This document shows positions 11,708 through 64,000 of a stretch of DNA of 64,000 nt, in pieces; the first letter of the stretch is position 1; the number at the start of each line of letters is the position of its first letter. The position numbers and the translations under genes were made by a program. Origin of the DNA: Streptomyces sparsogenes (GTDB lineage Bacteria > Actinomycetota > Actinomycetes > Streptomycetales > Streptomycetaceae); contig NZ_MAXF01000136.1 in NCBI RefSeq assembly GCF_001704635.1, positions 62,001-126,000 on the forward strand, in the 5' to 3' direction. Below the pieces are notes generated by a model. It ran no database searches. It was not told where the DNA came from and saw only the letters and a program-made list of their open reading frames with translations.

Positions 11708-11715
11708 CCCACCCA

Positions 11716-11764
11716 GCCCCGTCAGGCGGACGTAGCCGGTTCGAATCCGGCGCGGGGCACTCCA
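11716..11764 (+). other. tRNA top-half remnant or attachment-site core
   Basis: GCCCCGT (11716-11722) can pair with GCGGGGC (11752-11758) as a 7-bp acceptor stem. The T arm GCCGG-TTCGAAT-CCGGC (11735-11751) is canonical. An A discriminator and CTCCA follow. Only 12 bases stand where the D arm, anticodon arm and variable loop should be. It cannot be a decoding tRNA. It may be a deleted tRNA gene or a tRNA 3' end carried as an att core. Confidence 0.55.
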
Positions 11765-11793
11765 AACCACCAGCGACCTGCCGAGGAGTCGCC

Positions 11794-51263: not shown

Positions 51264-51673
51264 AGGGAGACTTCGCCCGCTACTACCCGGGCGTTGACCT
51301 GTTGGACGTGTACCGGGGCCGTCTGTCGTGGCGCCGACTGCGGGTGCTGATCCAGCATCTGCCACCCGAGTCGGCCACGATGACCGAGCTCCGCAACAGT
51401 CTGAGCGATGAGGAGATGGCCGAGCAGGCCGAGGCGGGCGAGCCGGAGAAGGGCCGCTGGTCGCAGGTCGAGCAGCTGCTTGCGCTGATCGCGGACCGGG
51501 TGGCGCGCCTGGAGTACGTGACGATCCTCGCCAACTCGGGCAGCAAGGGAAAGAAGCCGACCCCGCCGGAGCCGATCGCCCGGCCGGGCGCGAAGGCAAA
51601 GAGGCCGAAGTCGAAACTCAGCGAGTCGAGCGCCGAGACGCTGTTCCAGCTCATCAATGGGGGCGCGGCCTGA
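50901..51673 (+). CDS. Tail assembly chaperone, frameshifted long form
   Basis: Residues 1-106 come from the zero frame, then the frame continues at 51218 (VQWTVSVLEAHAEAVEGDFARYYPG...) to the stop at 51673, giving about 257 aa. The -1 part is acidic and helical with a basic Lys-rich tail (GSKGKKPTPPEPIARPGAKAKRPKSK). The long (gpGT-like) form recruits the tape measure to the tail tube. Confidence 0.8.
51212..51218 (+). promoter_or_regulatory. -1 frameshift slippery site GGGAAAG
   Basis: Read as ..G GGA AAG in the zero frame, it allows a -1 slip to GGG AAA. The -1 frame then runs openly to 51673. Standard tail-chaperone arrangement. Confidence 0.85.
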
Positions 51674-51692
51674 CGCGCGGGAGGAGGCTCCC

Positions 51693-54600
51693 GTGGCCAT
51701 CAGCGTCGGTTCGGTCGAGGTCGACGTCATCCCCAACACACAGGGGATCTATGGCCGGCTCCGTGCGGGGCTCGTGCCTGCCGCAACCCGGGCCGGCGAG
51801 GACGCTGGCTCGGCGGCGGGGCGCTCGTTCGGTGCGGCGATGCAACGCCAGGTTGCTGACATCGGCCTGCGAATCGGCGAGGAGATCGGGCAGCAGATCG
51901 CCAACCGGATCACCGCGTCGCTGCGGGATGCGATCCGGGATGGTGTGACGCGCGGCGGCCAGACGGCTCGCCCAGCGGCGGTGCGGCAGGGTGACCAGAC
52001 TGCTGGTGCGTTTTCCCGGGCGCTCAGGGCTCATCTGCAGGCGGCGTTCCGGTCGCTGCCGCAGTTGCAGATCGGCGCGGACACCTCTGAGGTGGACGCG
52101 GATCTGCAGGCTGTGCGCGTCCGTATGGAGACCTTGGCGGACAAGCGGATCGGCATCGACATCTCTGCTGCGGACGCCAAAGCTGAGATCGCGCTGATCG
52201 AGGCGGAGCTGACGCGGCTCGGCGCCCGGCATCCGAACGTGCAGGTGAGGGCCGACACCGCGAGGGCGATCGCAGAGCTGCGCTTGGTGCGGGCCGAGAT
52301 CGATGCAGTGGACGGCAAACGGGCAAAGATCGACATCGACACCAGCGGAGCGACCGCATCGATCTTCCAGTTGATGGTGGCACTCGGCGGCGTCGCCGTG
52401 CTCCCCGCGATCCCGGCTCTGGCTGCCGCCCTCGGGGCGGTGGCCTCGGCGGGTGTCGCGGCGGCGGTCGGCGTGGGTGCACTGGCTGCGGTGGCGATCC
52501 CTGGATTCGTTGCTATTGGGGGGGCTCTGCAGGCCCAGAAGCAGGCCCAGGACGCGGCGACCAATGCCACCTTGCGGGGCGGCCAGGCCGCTAACCAAGG
52601 GGCGTCACGGGCTCTTCAGATGGCCGGCGCTCAGCAGGCCCTGGCGACGGCGGAACGCACCGGTGCTCGGCAGATCGCGCAGGCCCAGCAGCAAGTGCGG
52701 CAGGCGAAGCAGGCGGCGGCCGATGCGGTCGCACAGGCGGCACAACGGAACGCCCAAGCCGCGCGGCAGGTGCAGGACGCAGAGCGGCAGCTCGCTCAGG
52801 CACAGAAGGACTCCAAGCAAGCCCAGCTCGACTTGACGGCAGCGCGGAAGCAGGCAGGGCAGGAGCTTGAGGATCTCGCGAACCGGTACGCGGACGCGCA
52901 GCTGTCCCAGCGGGACGCGGCGCTGTCGGTGCAGGAAGCTCAGCTTGAACTGAACAGAGTTCTGGCGGATCCGAAGGCCACGAAGCTGCAGAGAGACCAG
53001 GCGCAGCTCGCCTACGACCAGGCAGTGCAGCGGCTGAAGGAGCAGACGACCGAGACGAAGCGGCTGAAGGCCGAGCAGGCCGACGCGGCGAAGAAGGGCG
53101 TTGAGGGTTCGGACACGGTCCGGCAGGCGCAGGATCGACTGGCTCAAGCACAGCAGCAGGTGGAGGACCGGGCTCAGGCAGTGCGGGACGCTCAGGGTGA
53201 GGCCGCAAGGGTTCAGGTGGAGACCGCCCGGCAGGTGGCCGAAGCACAGCAGCGTGTGGGTGAGGCGACCGCGAACGTGGCCGTGGCCCAGCAGAACGCA
53301 GCGGACGCGGTGGCTAGTGCCCAGCAGCAGATCGAGTCGGCGTCCATCTCGGCCGCCGGTGGTGTGGATCAGGCTGCCCTGGCACAGGAGAAGTACCAGG
53401 AGAAGTTGGCGAAGCTGACGCCTGCGGCCCGGGACACCTTCGACGCGTTCGTGGATCTGAGGTCGGCGTTCTCGGCGTGGTCGAAGAGTCTTCAGCCTGC
53501 GGTGATGCCGATCTTTACGCGGGCACTGGAGGGCATCAAGAACTCGCTTCCAGGGCTCACGCCGCTGGTGCTTGCTGCAGCCGACGGCATCAAGGAGTTG
53601 CAGGACCGGGCCTCGGCCGGGTTCAAGAAGCCCTGGTGGAAAGAGTTCAAGGCCGACCTGGCGACCTCAATCAAACCCGCGATCGTCGGCCTGGGTGTCG
53701 CGTTCGGCAACATCTTCAAAGGCATGGTCGGCATCATCGACGCCTTCCTGCCACACATGGACTCGATCTCGGGCCGCATGCAGCGGATCACGAGCCGGTT
53801 CGCCGACTGGGGCACGTCACTCAAGGGCTCCCCGTCGTTTGAACGGTTCCTCGCCTACTCGTCCGACCAGGGGCCGAAGGTCGCCGAAGCGCTGGGGAAG
53901 ATTGCGGGGGCGTTCCTGGCGGTCGGGCAGGCGCTCTCGCCGCTGTCGGGGCCGATCCTCACAGTGATCGGCACGCTCGCCGATGGCGTGGTGTACATCG
54001 CAGAGAACCTGCCGTGGCTGGTCCAGGGCCTGTACGGCGCGTACATCGCTTTCAAGCTGCTGAGCTTGGCGATGTCCATCACACCGCTGGGCTGGCTGAT
54101 CCTTGGCCTGATCGGCCTAGTGGTGGCCATCAAGTATGCATGGGACCATTTCAAGTGGTTCCGCGACATCGTCACGGGCGTCTGGTCTGGGATCTCAACC
54201 GCCTTCACCACCGCTTGGACAGTTGTGTTGCTGCCCACGTTCACGGCGATCTGGGGCGCGATCCAGTGGGTTGGAGACAAGGCCACCTGGCTGTGGCAGA
54301 ACATCATCGGCCCAGCGTTCAAGGGCATCGCGCTCGCTGCCGGGATCCTCATCACGGCCATCCTCACGGTTCTGATCACCCCCCTGTACCTGGCATTCCA
54401 GCTCATAGCCACGGTTGTCACCTGGCTGTGGCAGGAAGCGATCAGTCCGGCGTTCGATGGCATCGCCACAGTGGCCAGCTGGCTGTACACCAACGCCATC
54501 AAAACCGCCTTCGACCTGATCAGCAGCTCATTCCACACCGTAGGTGACACAGGAAAATGGCTGTGGCAGAAGGCCCTGTCGCCTGCGTTCCACGGAATAG

Positions 54601-55919
54601 CTGATGTGGCCCACTGGCTGCACGACAGCGTAATCAAACCCGTCTTCGACGGAATCTCCACGACGATCGGCATTGTTTGGCGGACGGGGATCCGGCCGGT
54701 GTTCAACGCGATCAAGTCTGCTATCGGCAAGGTCGCTGATGCTTTTGACGATGCTCGCAAGGCGATCAAGACAGCGTGGGATAAGGTCAAGGAGGCGACG
54801 AAAACCCCTATCAACTGGGTGCTGGACCACGTCTGGAACAAGGGTATCGTCAAAGTCTGGGAGAAGGTCACGGGCTGGATTCCGGGCGTGCCGAAGCTGG
54901 GCAAAGTCGATCTCCTGGCCCAAGGTGGCACCCTTCGAGGCCCGCAGCCCGGCATCTACAACCAGCCGACCGCGATCGTAGGCGAGGGAAACCCGCGGTA
55001 TCCGGAATTCGTAATCCCCACAGATCCGAAGTACCGGTCCCGGGCCCTCGCCCTGCACCAGGCCGCAGGGACGCAGATGCTCGCCAAGGGCGGCATCATC
55101 GGCTCGGCCACGTCGTTCCTCAAGAATCCGGTGAAGACCTTCGGGAACATGCTGAAGCCGTTCCTCGACGGGGCCAGATGGCTCAGCAAGACAAGCTGGG
55201 GAAAGGCGGCAATCGGTCTGCCCAAGATGGCCATCAGTAGTCTGAAGAAGCTCATCAAAGACAAGGTTTCCGGCTGGTTCACCCGGGATGCCAATGGGTT
55301 GCTGAAGTTCATCGGTAAGGCCGGTAAAGGGGTCTCGCGCTGGACTCCCGAGGTGCTGGACGCACTCAAGCAATTGCATCAGCCCGCGTCCTACCTGGGC
55401 ATCACCCTTCGGCGAATGAACCAGGAATCCGGGGGCAACCCGACGGCAGTCAACCTTTGGGACAGCAATGCCAAGGCCGGATACCCGTCGACCGGGTTGA
55501 TGCAGGTAATCCGGCCGACGTTCCAGCACTATGCGGGCAAGTACCGGAAGAAGGGCCCGTTCATGTACGGGGTGAGCGTTGACCCGCTCGCCAACATCTA
55601 CTCATCGATGCGGTATGCGTTGGCGGCCTACGGCAGCCTGCCGCGGGCGTACAACCGGGCGGGCGGCTACGACTCCGGCGGCTACCTCCAGCCGGGCTTG
55701 AACCTCGCCTACAACGGCACCGGCAGGCCGGAGCCCGTATTCACCACAGCGCAGGCCAACGCCCTCGTGCGGCGCGCTGCCGCGCCATCGGGGGGTGGCG
55801 GCGAGTTCACCGGAGATCTCTACCTCGACTCTGGTGAGTTCCTCGGGAAGGTGCGCGGCGAAGTGCGTCAAGAGATGGGCGCAGTAGCGACTGCATTGCG
55901 CGCGAACAGGCGGGGGTGA
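51693..55919 (+). CDS. Tape measure protein with C-terminal transglycosylase domain
   Basis: 1408 aa. GTG at 51693 has GGGAGGAGG; the longer ATG at 51657 overlaps the chaperone end. Long coiled coil (about 290-560) with Gln/Ala repeats. Hydrophobic central part (about 770-960) with repeated W-L-W-Q. The C-terminal 150 residues are a soluble lytic transglycosylase-like domain: LGITLRRMNQESGGNPTAVNLWDSNA...PSTGLMQVIRPTF, with E1245 as the likely catalytic residue. It sets tail length and may open the cell wall during DNA entry. Confidence 0.92.
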   Translation: MAISVGSVEVDVIPNTQGIYGRLRAGLVPAATRAGEDAGSAAGRSFGAAMQRQVADIGLRIGEEIGQQIANRITASLRDAIRDGVTRGGQTARPAAVRQGDQTAGAFSRALRAHLQAAFRSLPQLQIGADTSEVDADLQAVRVRMETLADKRIGIDISAADAKAEIALIEAELTRLGARHPNVQVRADTARAIAELRLVRAEIDAVDGKRAKIDIDTSGATASIFQLMVALGGVAVLPAIPALAAALGAVASAGVAAAVGVGALAAVAIPGFVAIGGALQAQKQAQDAATNATLRGGQAANQGASRALQMAGAQQALATAERTGARQIAQAQQQVRQAKQAAADAVAQAAQRNAQAARQVQDAERQLAQAQKDSKQAQLDLTAARKQAGQELEDLANRYADAQLSQRDAALSVQEAQLELNRVLADPKATKLQRDQAQLAYDQAVQRLKEQTTETKRLKAEQADAAKKGVEGSDTVRQAQDRLAQAQQQVEDRAQAVRDAQGEAARVQVETARQVAEAQQRVGEATANVAVAQQNAADAVASAQQQIESASISAAGGVDQAALAQEKYQEKLAKLTPAARDTFDAFVDLRSAFSAWSKSLQPAVMPIFTRALEGIKNSLPGLTPLVLAAADGIKELQDRASAGFKKPWWKEFKADLATSIKPAIVGLGVAFGNIFKGMVGIIDAFLPHMDSISGRMQRITSRFADWGTSLKGSPSFERFLAYSSDQGPKVAEALGKIAGAFLAVGQALSPLSGPILTVIGTLADGVVYIAENLPWLVQGLYGAYIAFKLLSLAMSITPLGWLILGLIGLVVAIKYAWDHFKWFRDIVTGVWSGISTAFTTAWTVVLLPTFTAIWGAIQWVGDKATWLWQNIIGPAFKGIALAAGILITAILTVLITPLYLAFQLIATVVTWLWQEAISPAFDGIATVASWLYTNAIKTAFDLISSSFHTVGDTGKWLWQKALSPAFHGIADVAHWLHDSVIKPVFDGISTTIGIVWRTGIRPVFNAIKSAIGKVADAFDDARKAIKTAWDKVKEATKTPINWVLDHVWNKGIVKVWEKVTGWIPGVPKLGKVDLLAQGGTLRGPQPGIYNQPTAIVGEGNPRYPEFVIPTDPKYRSRALALHQAAGTQMLAKGGIIGSATSFLKNPVKTFGNMLKPFLDGARWLSKTSWGKAAIGLPKMAISSLKKLIKDKVSGWFTRDANGLLKFIGKAGKGVSRWTPEVLDALKQLHQPASYLGITLRRMNQESGGNPTAVNLWDSNAKAGYPSTGLMQVIRPTFQHYAGKYRKKGPFMYGVSVDPLANIYSSMRYALAAYGSLPRAYNRAGGYDSGGYLQPGLNLAYNGTGRPEPVFTTAQANALVRRAAAPSGGGGEFTGDLYLDSGEFLGKVRGEVRQEMGAVATALRANRRG

Positions 55920-60840: not shown

Positions 60841-61884
60841 GTGGCCAAGACGGGACCACAGCGCTACCCCGGCGCATCCACCACCTACTGGTACCAGTCC
60901 GCGTGGGGTGGCGACTCGATGGAGTCGAACGTCATCGTCTGGCACACCACCGAAGGCACCAGCCTCCCCTCCTACAGCGGGGGAGCGCAGGCCCCCAACT
61001 TCACCGCCGTGCCCGACTTCAAGAACAAGCGGCTGCTCTGGTACCAGCACTTCGACTTCGACACCTCCGCCCGTGCCCTCGTCAACCGGCCTGGCGGGGT
61101 CGAGACCAACACGCTCAATGTGTGCCAGGTTGAACTCGTCGGCACCTGCGACCCGTCCACGCACAAGAAGTGGGGCAGCACCCCGCACCTGTACACCTCG
61201 GAGCTGCCCGACTGGGTGATCCGTGACCTGGCCGCCTTCGTTAAGTGGGCCCACGACCAGCACGGCGTGCCGCTCACCAGCGCGGTGACGTTCAAGGCAT
61301 ACCCGGGCAGCTACGGCTCCAACGGGGTGCGCATGACCGCCGCCAAATGGAACAGCTTCACCGGCCACTGCGGGCACCAGCACGTCCCCGAGAACGACCA
61401 CGGCGACCCCGGCCTATTTCCTATGGGCGCCATCCTCGACCACGCCAAGGGCGCCAGCACCCCCACCACCCCGCACCAGCAGGGAGAAGACAGCGACATG
61501 CCCACCACGCTCGGTCTGTACAGCACCACCGACCGGCCCCTCGTCCCGGGGAAATGGACCACGCTCACGGTCGAAAAGACCGATATCGTCACCGGCGCCA
61601 ATGCCTACACCGCGAGCGTCATGCTTACCGTCGACGGTGCACCCGCCGGCGGCACCCTCCAGGGCCGCTTCTACCACCAGCGCACAGACGGATCCCGCTG
61701 GGACTCAGGCATCGTCGAACGCCCCACCACAGCAGGCAGCAGCTTCGTCGACTTCCCCCACGCCGGATCCATCGCCGCCACCGAGAAGCTCCGCTTCGAA
61801 GTCGCCTACTTCCCCGCCACCTCAGGCGACGAAAAGTCGGTCACCATCACCACGTCGCGCGTGCGCGGCCTCTACTGGAAGTGA
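60841..61884 (+). CDS. N-acetylmuramoyl-L-alanine amidase endolysin
   Basis: 347 aa from GTG. Amidase_2 domain in residues 1-205: W-H-T-T-E-G with H35, and G-H-C-G-H-Q-H-V-P-E-N-D-H-G-D-P-G (176-191) as the metal/catalytic end. The C-terminal 125 residues form a beta domain, probably wall binding. It cuts the host peptidoglycan at lysis. Confidence 0.88.
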   Translation: MAKTGPQRYPGASTTYWYQSAWGGDSMESNVIVWHTTEGTSLPSYSGGAQAPNFTAVPDFKNKRLLWYQHFDFDTSARALVNRPGGVETNTLNVCQVELVGTCDPSTHKKWGSTPHLYTSELPDWVIRDLAAFVKWAHDQHGVPLTSAVTFKAYPGSYGSNGVRMTAAKWNSFTGHCGHQHVPENDHGDPGLFPMGAILDHAKGASTPTTPHQQGEDSDMPTTLGLYSTTDRPLVPGKWTTLTVEKTDIVTGANAYTASVMLTVDGAPAGGTLQGRFYHQRTDGSRWDSGIVERPTTAGSSFVDFPHAGSIAATEKLRFEVAYFPATSGDEKSVTITTSRVRGLYWK

Positions 61885-63275: not shown

Positions 63276-63303
63276 TTGCCGTGTCGGCACCCCCATGTAC
63301 TCT
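63276..63303 (+). promoter_or_regulatory. Candidate Y RNA promoter
   Basis: TTGCCG (63276-63281), 16 bases, TACTCT (63298-63303). It would start transcription near 63310, just before the first structured RNA. A GC-rich hairpin-like stretch followed by TTCT (about 63239-63269) lies upstream and may end the lysis transcript. Confidence 0.45.
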
Positions 63304-63318
63304 TGAGCCACAACTTCA

Positions 63319-63395
63319 TGCACCTCCCGGTGCGCAGGCCGCGGCTACTTCTTTGGGTGAATCACGCCGCACGCCGACTTTGATCTCGGGAGGCA
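63319..63395 (+). ncRNA. Y RNA-like RNA 1, no tRNA module
   Basis: A lower stem CCTCCCG/CGGGAGG (63323-63329, 63387-63393) encloses an internal loop: GTGCGCA on the 5' side (63330-63336) and GACTTTGATCT on the 3' side (63376-63386). Above it GGC/GCC (63337-63339, 63373-63375), a C mismatch, and GCGGC/GCCGC (63341-63345, 63366-63370). Apical loop 63346-63365 begins TACTTCT. The same order, with the same 5' internal-loop bases, occurs in the second RNA. Known Y RNAs have this kind of bulged helix as the Ro60-binding site. Confidence 0.75.
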
Positions 63396-63403
63396 CAGCA
63401 TCG

Positions 63404-63549
63404 GGGGTGCCCGGTGCGCAGGCCGGGGATACTTCTCCTGCCAAGAGAGAGACGCGGGTTCGAATCCCGCCCTCCGGTCCAGGGGACCGGAGGTAGCTCA
63501 GCGGCCTAGAGCGCTACGTTTCCCCAGCCGATTTGATCTCGGGCACCCT
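63404..63549 (+). ncRNA. Y RNA-like RNA 2 (YrlA-type) with permuted tRNA module
   Basis: Lower stem GGGTGCCCG/CGGGCACCC (63405-63413, 63540-63548); internal loop GTGCGCA (63414-63420) and GATTTGATCT (63530-63539); upper helix GGC-C-GGGGA/TCCCC-A-GCC (63421-63429, 63521-63529). Inside is a circularly permuted tRNA: T arm GCGGG-TTCGAAT-CCCGC (63454-63470), acceptor 3' strand 63471-63480, AGG loop, acceptor 5' strand 63484-63493 (10 bp), TA, then D arm GCTC/GAGC (63496-63512) with a GG in its loop. There is no anticodon arm. This matches the tRNA-mimic design described for YrlA RNAs. Confidence 0.88.
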
Positions 63550-63561
63550 ACTGCTGGTCCT

Positions 63562-63584
63562 TCCCTCTACGTGAGGGGCTTTTT
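63562..63584 (+). terminator. Terminator overlapping the TROVE gene RBS
   Basis: CCCTC (63563-63567), TACGT loop, GAGGG (63573-63577), then GCTTTTT. It can end the Y RNA transcript. GAGGGG in its 3' arm is also the RBS of the ATG at 63586. Confidence 0.7.
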
Positions 63585-63585
63585 C

Positions 63586-64000
63586 ATGGCCAGGTTCAAC
63601 CAGCGCGGCAGCCGTCCCGCCGTCCACTCGCCCGTGACCACCACCGGGGAACGGACCATCACACACGAAGGCGCCACCGGACACCTCCGGGACGCGAAGA
63701 GCGAACTCTTCCTGCTCGCGGTCAGCAACTTCGTGGGTGTCGACACCTTCTACGAGAAGGGCGGCCAGCGCGACGACCGGTACACTCAGCTCGTCCGCAA
63801 GCTCGCCATCGAAGACCCCGAGTGGACAGCCGGACTCCTCGGCTGGTTGCGCGGCGAGGGCAACATGCGCACCGCCGCCCTCGTCGGCGCCGCCGAGTTC
63901 ACCGCCGAACGCCTGCTGCACGAGGTGCCCGGCTACTCCCGGCAGGTCATCGCCTCCGTCCTCCAGCGCGCCGACGAGCCGGGGGAGATGCTCGGCTACT
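63586..64000 (+). CDS. rsr: Ro60/TROVE-domain protein, 3' end outside window
   Basis: 138 residues are visible from ATG. The N-terminal TROVE pattern is clear: an opening basic region, then T-H-E-G-A-T-G-H-L-R-D-A-K-S-E-L-F-L-L-A-V-S-N-F-V-G-V-D-T-F-Y-E, L-V-R-K-L-A-I-E-D-P-E-W-T-A-G-L-L-G-W-L-R-G-E-G-N-M-R-T-A-A-L-V-G-A, which are HEAT-like repeats of the Ro ring. Ro60 binds Y RNAs on the outside of the ring and misfolded RNAs in its hole. In bacteria it tethers RNA nucleases through Y RNA. Directly after two Y RNA-like genes. Confidence 0.92.
   Translation, partial: MARFNQRGSRPAVHSPVTTTGERTITHEGATGHLRDAKSELFLLAVSNFVGVDTFYEKGGQRDDRYTQLVRKLAIEDPEWTAGLLGWLRGEGNMRTAALVGAAEFTAERLLHEVPGYSRQVIASVLQRADEPGEMLGY

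Follow-up and report, generated by a model that had tools for sequence, protein, structure and literature searches.

Y RNA genes reportedly lie near the Ro60 gene in more than 250 bacterial and phage species, with at least one Y RNA per species carrying a tRNA-like domain, as Chen is said to have described in 2014. According to a review, YrlA mimics the D, T and acceptor arms of tRNA only (PMC8394870), and the structure of Salmonella YrlA (6CU1) is circularly permuted with respect to tRNA (PMC11472068). In Salmonella the rsr-yrlBA operon, a Ro gene accompanied by two Y RNAs, is induced by tRNA fragments; the accessible part of that report suggests that YrlA could competitively inhibit a nuclease, and states that YrlA is not cut by the Salmonella nuclease (PMC7790460). 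A role of Ro-Y RNA-PNPase is known in D. radiodurans (PMC8394870, PMC7790460). Among phages, Y RNAs beside Ro have been proposed for Listeria phage CKA15, in an article that cites Y RNAs in mycobacteriophages (PMC12282133), and TROVE proteins have been noted in jumbo phages (PMC7824862). In the available portions of the limited set of literature searched, bacterial Y RNAs are nowhere described as having an anticodon arm. The RNA described here bears on the function of the tRNA-like domain of bacterial Y RNAs and on the purpose of Ro in phages.

The locus analysed here comes from the 8.9-Mb genome of Streptomyces sparsogenes and lies in a stretch of 64,000 nucleotides (G000:C42:62001-126000, hereafter the window; positions are those of the window unless a locus is named). 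It consists, on the plus strand, of a compact RNA (RNA1, 63323-63393), a longer RNA (RNA2, 63405-63548) and a Ro60/TROVE gene starting at 63586, the only Ro match that a homology search found in the whole genome. The same Ro protein is encoded, with 100% identity, on an IMG/VR viral contig of 83,742 bp. Upstream of Ro, genes for a tail tape measure protein (51657-55916) and an endolysin (60841-61881) matched PHROGs families, and downstream an integrase gene (L002:9805-10824) matched both PHROGs and Pfam Phage_integrase. Because Ro is found on a viral contig and these three genes match phage families, the locus is, as judged from sequence, part of a Streptomyces prophage. An earlier note, made from the letters alone, had proposed a mobile-element Ro60-Y RNA locus with one compact and one tRNA-mimic RNA, and these findings bear it out. 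As in the Salmonella rsr-yrlBA-rtcBA operon, a Ro gene is combined with two Y RNAs, one of them tRNA-like; unlike in that operon, the RNAs precede Ro and lie in a prophage, and no counterpart of rtcBA was recognised here on unsystematic inspection. Two neighbouring genes are recorded as side observations. Downstream of Ro in the same prophage, L002:6089-6751 gives a GmrSD_C match (E 1.2e-10) and has a signal-peptide-like start, and in Streptomyces phage Kela an RNA ligase gene (L104:729-1481; Pfam RNA_ligase, E 2.5e-17) stands immediately 5' of Ro.

A possible promoter was noted by eye on the plus strand at 63276-63303, namely TTGCCG (63276-63281), a 16-nt spacer and TACTCT (63298-63303). A TAnnnT-like box occupies the promoter place in many of 23 aligned relatives; a pattern scan for promoters found no promoter-like site at the locus. 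Transcription would begin upstream of 63315. Just before the Ro start, a terminator-like hairpin with a T run was found on the same strand (63562-63584; one found versus a shuffle mean of 0.4), and similar hairpins occur at 34/88 viral and 7/80 genome loci. Its 3' arm, GAGGGG, is probably the ribosome-binding site of Ro. Attenuation of Ro by this hairpin is possible: partial termination at 63562-63584 would cause the RNA to be made in excess over the Ro protein.

The Ro60/TROVE gene begins with an ATG at 63586 on the plus strand, runs to the window end (63586-64000) and continues to L002:5199, encoding 537 residues in total. Pfam TROVE (PF05731) was matched with E 1.1e-13 and 51.6 bits, against a cut-off of 23, over a middle stretch of the protein only, while residues 22-534 matched a PHROG RNA-binding family (E 1.3e-48). 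An AlphaFold model based on 26 sequences (mean pLDDT 85.8, pTM 0.84) aligns along its length with the solved Ro60 proteins of phage phiLo (9l5y) and D. radiodurans (Rsr, 2nvo), and also with the animal Ro60 structures 1yvp and 9nep. The prophage protein shares the full ring and the von Willebrand fold with Rsr and phiLo Ro60, at only 16-26% sequence identity. The residues of the von Willebrand metal site (D362, S364, S366, T434 and D455) are invariant in 26/26 aligned Ro proteins. The earlier note had predicted a TROVE protein gene after the RNAs and had staked its reading on a von Willebrand-like domain and a complete ring; the gene was confirmed by the Pfam, PHROG and model evidence, and both parts of the protein are present in the model and the metal-site residues, so that the sequence and the model are those expected of a full Ro60 ring protein with a von Willebrand domain. 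Binding of Y RNA by this Ro is putative, by analogy with known Y RNAs. Ro homologues at E <= 1e-20 were found in 199/392 genomes of the genus Streptomyces, and 67 GenBank phage records contain one.

Both RNAs have the features of bacterial Y RNAs, that is, a place beside Ro and a conserved stem; Ro binding itself is putative. RNA1 was delimited by sequence reading, folding, alignment and covariation in 71 relatives. Its lower stem of 7 bp, CCTCCCG/CGGGAGG (63323-63329/63387-63393), leads to an internal loop whose 5' strand GUGCGCA (63330-63336) lies opposite UUUGAUCU; above the loop come upper helices of 3 bp and 5 bp, then UACUUC, and a small hairpin UUC-UUUGGGU-GAA at 63349-63361. In RNA2 the lower stem is GGGTGCCCG/CGGGCACCC (63405-63413/63540-63548), followed by an internal loop, the putative Ro-binding site, made of the 5' strand GUGCGCA (63414-63420), which is conserved among the 23 aligned loci, and the 3' strand GAUUUGAUCU (63530-63539). 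Thus the RNAs have in common the 5' loop strand GTGCGCA and a 3' strand ending TTTGATCT, and both carry GGC/GCC, one mismatch, a 5-bp helix and TACTTCT. The resemblance between the two neighbours that the earlier note had described was confirmed by reading and folding. Its count of at least five stem pairs changed on both sides also stands, exactly five being found, three at the outer end of the 7-bp lower stem and two in the upper helix.

Folding alone does not single out RNA1 (z -0.59; 49/200 shuffles are as stable), so the case for it is a comparative one. In the 71 relatives its structure gives a covariation score of 0.309, against 0.031-0.084 when the structure is slid by 1-3 columns. These rows were chosen by the lower stem, and the upper helices played no part in the selection; in helices 2-4, outside the selection, 7/8 pairs change on both sides. 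The set (A4) holds 71 of 96 non-redundant compact candidates, 25 having been left out by hand, namely 8 false stems, 2 long ones (L127, L173) and 15 merely to shorten the list. No covariation was found among the 71 in the UUC/GAA hairpin. An anticodon-like hairpin in the compact RNA is no more than hinted at: a stem of 3-5 bp with a 7-nt loop occurs in 69/115 distinct regions, with U33 in 65/69, and one phage subgroup has a 4-nt loop. As a minor point, 63321-63327 of the RNA1 region reads CACCUCC, which we take to be the anti-Shine-Dalgarno sequence of 16S rRNA; it is stem-paired with GGGAGG, and the likeness is perhaps due to chance.

RNA2, delimited by reading, folding, alignment and the covariance model R1 described below, folds better than 200/200 shuffles (z -3.83). 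After UACUUC, its modules follow in the order anticodon hairpin, T arm, loop-joined acceptor and D arm. The anticodon hairpin (63435-63449) comprises nt 29-31 CUC (63435-63437), the loop 32-38 CUGCCAA (63438-63444) and nt 39-43 GAGAG (63445-63449), and is identified by permutation, covariation and loop counts. The T arm GCGGG-UUCGAAU-CCCGC (63454-63470) and the D arm GCUC-AGCGGCCUA-GAGC (63496-63512) were recognised by sequence reading and alignment to RF02553. Between them, reading and folding place an acceptor stem closed by a loop (63471-63493), with the 3' strand CCUCCGG (63471-63477), UCCA, and then the 5' strand CCGGAGG (63487-63493). Nt 27-28 (CU, 63514-63515) pair with 43 and 42 (63449 and 63448) as the outer part of a composite anticodon stem. 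It is well supported by the sequence that RNA2 carries a tRNA domain that is complete (D, anticodon and T arms plus a capped acceptor) but circularly permuted.

ARAGORN calls a tRNA-Gly(gcc) on RNA2, a call that we rejected as a linear misreading. The RNA is permuted with a loop-closed acceptor and does not have the linear order acceptor-D-anticodon-T-acceptor with a free 3' end. The ARAGORN call, together with the UCCA after the acceptor 3' strand, is what could be said for a genuine permuted tRNA gene, from which processing of the transcript would yield a functional tRNA; with a long Y stem interrupting the anticodon stem, the acceptor ends joined, and GGUCCA at this place in only 5/23 aligned relatives, we regard such processing as extremely improbable.

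The comparison with YrlA (RF02553, 6CU1) gave a divided outcome. RNA2 shares with it the Y stem and the permuted arrangement of T arm, capped acceptor and D arm, and in the YrlA covariance-model comparison that the earlier note had called for the modules indeed align in order (27.9 bits, positions 28-81); the score lies below the gathering threshold of 69, and at gathering thresholds Rfam gave no match in the window. In RF02553 two flanking segments, one preceding the T arm and one following the D arm, pair as a single stem running into the Y stem. RNA2 does not have this single stem; it has a closed anticodon arm instead, and the Y stem enters at 28/29. This anticodon arm, beyond the D, T and acceptor mimicry of the described YrlA, appears from sequence to be the unusual feature of the locus, and the earlier note had overlooked it.

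Several lines of evidence support the anticodon arm. First, modules were picked by the CTTC-to-T-stem spacing (22 or 23 nt), not by anticodon pairing, which gave 96 distinct sequences. Among their 42 distinct stem combinations, 16 pair in 5/5 positions, compared with a mean of 2.9 and a maximum of 10 in 20,000 permutations. Secondly, an alignment (A2) was made of 101 rows from 112 non-redundant modules, 11 being left out by hand (ten far from or beyond the Ro start and one beside a Ro fragment). Selection for A2 required CTTC, T arm, acceptor and D arm, and these parts are therefore conserved in it partly by construction. The anticodon helix is 89.7% paired over the 101 modules. Pair 30-40 is CG in 36 rows, GC in 30, UA in 15, AU in 3 and UG in 1, with 5 unpaired and 11 gaps; pair 31-39 is AU in 45, CG in 35, UA in 13 and GC in 3, with 5 unpaired. 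Both sides change in 48/101 rows at the former and in 51/101 at the latter, and pair 29-41, unpaired in 19/101 rows as aligned, was counted against the helix.

The composite nature of the stem was tested in 74/101 rows, the sole condition being the three inner hairpin pairs. In these 74 rows, D-side pair 27-43 is CG 65 times, GC 3 times and UA once, and 28-42 is CG 36, UA 30, GC 3 and AU 1. Both are Watson-Crick pairs in 67/74 rows, versus a mean of 26.7 and a maximum of 40 in 5,000 permutations. D-side nt 30 and 31 do not match 40 and 39 in this A2-based test. The D side thus contributes two pairs of the stem and the hairpin three, and the Y stem enters between nt 28 and 29. As read from these alignments, the anticodon stem is composite, with 27-43 and 28-42 made by the strand after the D arm and 29-41 to 31-39 by the hairpin. 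RNAalifold, run unaided on A2, did not call the anticodon helix, and the minimum-energy fold of RNA2 (-77.8 kcal/mol) puts the hairpin one register off, the hand-drawn structure having -62.4; the helix is retained despite RNAalifold on the strength of the named-structure count and the permutation tests. Viral loci akin to a Xanthomonas phage Ro keep these arms with different stem sequences (UUCGC/GCGGG, UUCGA/UCGAG), and 20/21 of this subset retain the composite pairs. We refer to modules with a composite anticodon arm, such as RNA2, as class II, and to those with a CTTC-T-stem spacing of 19-21 as class I. In class I, as in RF02553, the D-side and T-side strands form one stem, a full 5-bp stem being found in 52/60 modules in the best of nine registers.

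Loop counts come from the 81 modules whose hairpin has 4 or more pairs. U33 occurs in 75/81 and A38 in 78/81; G36 is followed by G37 in 13/13, U36 by A37 in 50/53 and C36 by A37 in 10/12. The 75 modules with U33 show 18 different triplets, the commonest being GUU (15), GCU (10), UGU (10) and CUU (6). GCC, the triplet at the anticodon position of RNA2, occurs once among the 75, namely in RNA2 itself, which with its CU-GCC-AA loop has the 5-bp stem, 7-nt loop, U33 and purine 37 of an anticodon arm. As far as these sequences tell, the class II loop keeps tRNA grammar while the triplet varies. The function of the domain can be tested directly, given that its anticodon arm follows tRNA grammar, has an exchangeable triplet and is entered by the Y stem at a defined point (28/29).

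G36-G37 and U36-A37 are the contexts of the m1G37 and t6A37 enzymes. A role as a hub, in which host tRNA-modifying enzymes or synthetases would be drawn to the ring or titrated by the complete tRNA shape, would be consistent with these contexts and with the action of DusA and TruB on YrlA as a substrate (PMC8394870); this reading seems to us improbable. The more serious competitor is an ordinary YrlA-type RNP, in which a 3'-5' exonuclease such as host PNPase would be tethered or gated by the tRNA-like domain to degrade structured RNA, the anticodon arm doing no more than completing or stabilising the fold. The Ro-Y RNA-PNPase precedent in D. radiodurans (PMC8394870, PMC7790460) and the alignment of the T, acceptor and D modules of RNA2 with RF02553 in the same order speak for it. 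It leaves unexplained the U33 and the coupling of 36 with 37 around a varying triplet, and we consider it possible though doubtful.

We tentatively favour, at somewhat less than an even chance, a phage Ro RNP with a Ro-tethered complete tRNA mimic that would serve as bait or decoy for anticodon-loop nucleases; this decoy reading is ranked first as the most likely, and the classical PNPase tether next. The Y stem (GUGCGCA/UUUGAUCU) would dock RNA2 on the outside of the Ro ring, where it would display an intact-looking tRNA with a real anticodon loop, neither chargeable nor usable in translation. Displayed in this way, RNA2 would occupy or capture proteins that recognise anticodon loops, above all host anticodon nucleases used against phages; the nuclease or the cut tRNA might then pass to the ring and a partner exonuclease, and the compact RNA1 might be a simpler version, or a gate, on further Ro rings. 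The decoy reading is preferred on two grounds: what RNA2 has over and above YrlA is the element read by anticodon nucleases, and phages use tRNAs to counter such nucleases, according to the available parts of two reports (PMC11555353, PMC10264068). RNA2 is like these counter-defence tRNAs in being a phage-made tRNA shape with an anticodon loop; they, as described there, are working tRNAs, whereas RNA2 has a permuted order, a capped acceptor and an attached Y stem. The response of the Salmonella operon to tRNA fragments and the suggested nuclease inhibition by YrlA also count in its favour, and the uncut state of YrlA in Salmonella counts against it (PMC7790460, as far as its accessible text goes), as do the chromosomal class II copies, the 142/294 loci at which the module finder returned no class II RNA, and the low share of named-phage loci that have one (3/20). 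Also counted against it, a link to RNA-repair genes was not shown by rough clustering of neighbouring frames, many of which are not genes. The sequences suggest that phages may display fake tRNAs on a protein ring, perhaps protecting the real ones. It is possible that the RNP uses its two RNAs for two kinds of client or nuclease. A wider version, in which phages and many Streptomyces would run Ro-tethered tRNA-mimic arrays as an exchangeable decoy system, with loops set by the nucleases faced and the compact RNA a Y stem with a minimal anticodon stem-loop, is rather unlikely in this full form.

The earlier note had regarded the paired compact/tRNA-mimic arrangement as the unusual part, and this could not be upheld. 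At 113/170 related Ro loci (55/80 genome and 58/90 viral), the majority, a compact RNA is accompanied by one or more T-arm-bearing RNAs, so that the pair is ordinary for the family; the published Salmonella operon likewise has two Y RNAs. Several chromosomal Streptomyces loci have, by reading, three RNAs in the order class II, compact, class I. A class II RNA was found at 152/294 loci (by source 21/29, 22/33, 2/14, 51/80, 30/57, 25/75 and 1/6), and at 142/294 the finder returned none, a figure that probably includes missed class II RNAs, since only modules with well-formed T, acceptor and D arms are picked up. At 67/294 loci the spacing rule identifies a class I RNA. The 170 and the 294 are not independent loci because the sources overlap (e.g. 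L011/L123, L010/L120, L047/L126, L170/L207 and L266/L331). Among named phages, 3/20 loci have a class II RNA (Gordonia phage VanLee, Xanthomonas phage Olaya and Caulobacter phage CcrPW); class II is not phage-specific, since Streptomyces chromosomes carry it too.

A covariance model of the RNA2-type module (R1) scores RNA2 at 76.9 bits over 63430-63512, a twin of RNA2 (L033) being included in the model. R1 matches at E <= 0.001 occur in 121/121 genomes of the genus, because other things, e.g. tandem tRNAs, match too. At 70.5 bits or more there are 49 matches in the 121 genomes, which were paired by hand with the Ro places from the genus-wide Ro search: 40 lie directly upstream of Ro, 3 are not beside Ro, and for 6 the Ro place was unlisted (G064, G074, G087, G010, G109 and G016:C3). 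The three away from Ro (G065:C1:8071455, G103:C1:7001851 and G062:C11:67747) are possible stand-alone Y RNAs or tRNA junctions. An RF02553 match at G000:C157 was rejected as a Y RNA because it falls on an ordinary tRNA-Asn and on another copy located where the contig ends. Real tandem tRNA junctions do match RF02553 and R1, as at L079, where two tRNAs lie under one YrlA match, and at G000:C157 (68.0 bits with R1); this likeness suggests a possible origin of the permuted domain. It could also mean that RNA2 is a mere relic, a tandem tRNA gene junction captured beside Ro with the anticodon arm left over. Compensatory changes tying the tRNA-derived strand 39-43 to the Y-side CNN and to D-side 27-28, together with the conserved place before Ro, go against a relic, and we disfavour it as very unlikely.

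Some further matches are recorded. R1 also matches 11710-11792 of the window weakly (17.6 bits, E 0.026), at a T-arm-like hairpin, probably by chance. In Caulobacter phage CcrPW (L331 470-1390), L330 and L333, several differing permuted modules precede one Ro, four of them in CcrPW; some of the modules in these three contain what reads like the long variable arm of Leu/Ser tRNAs, as though the arrays mimicked different tRNAs. The GenBank tRNAs before Ro in VanLee, Alone3, GiJojo and Frankenweenie (tRNA-Arg, -Ser, -Arg and -Pro, respectively) coincide with Y RNA modules. ARAGORN repeats these calls and gives in addition a tRNA-Asn(gtt) on the Olaya class II RNA; the tRNA-like calls that coincide with Y RNA modules are at L110:1204-1275, L107:1274-1347, L108:1269-1343, L106:1245-1335 and L117:1321-1391. 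Such Y RNAs are thus listed as tRNAs by tRNA finders and in some GenBank phage records, and the phage tRNAs annotated just before Ro look, from their sequences, like misannotated Y RNAs.
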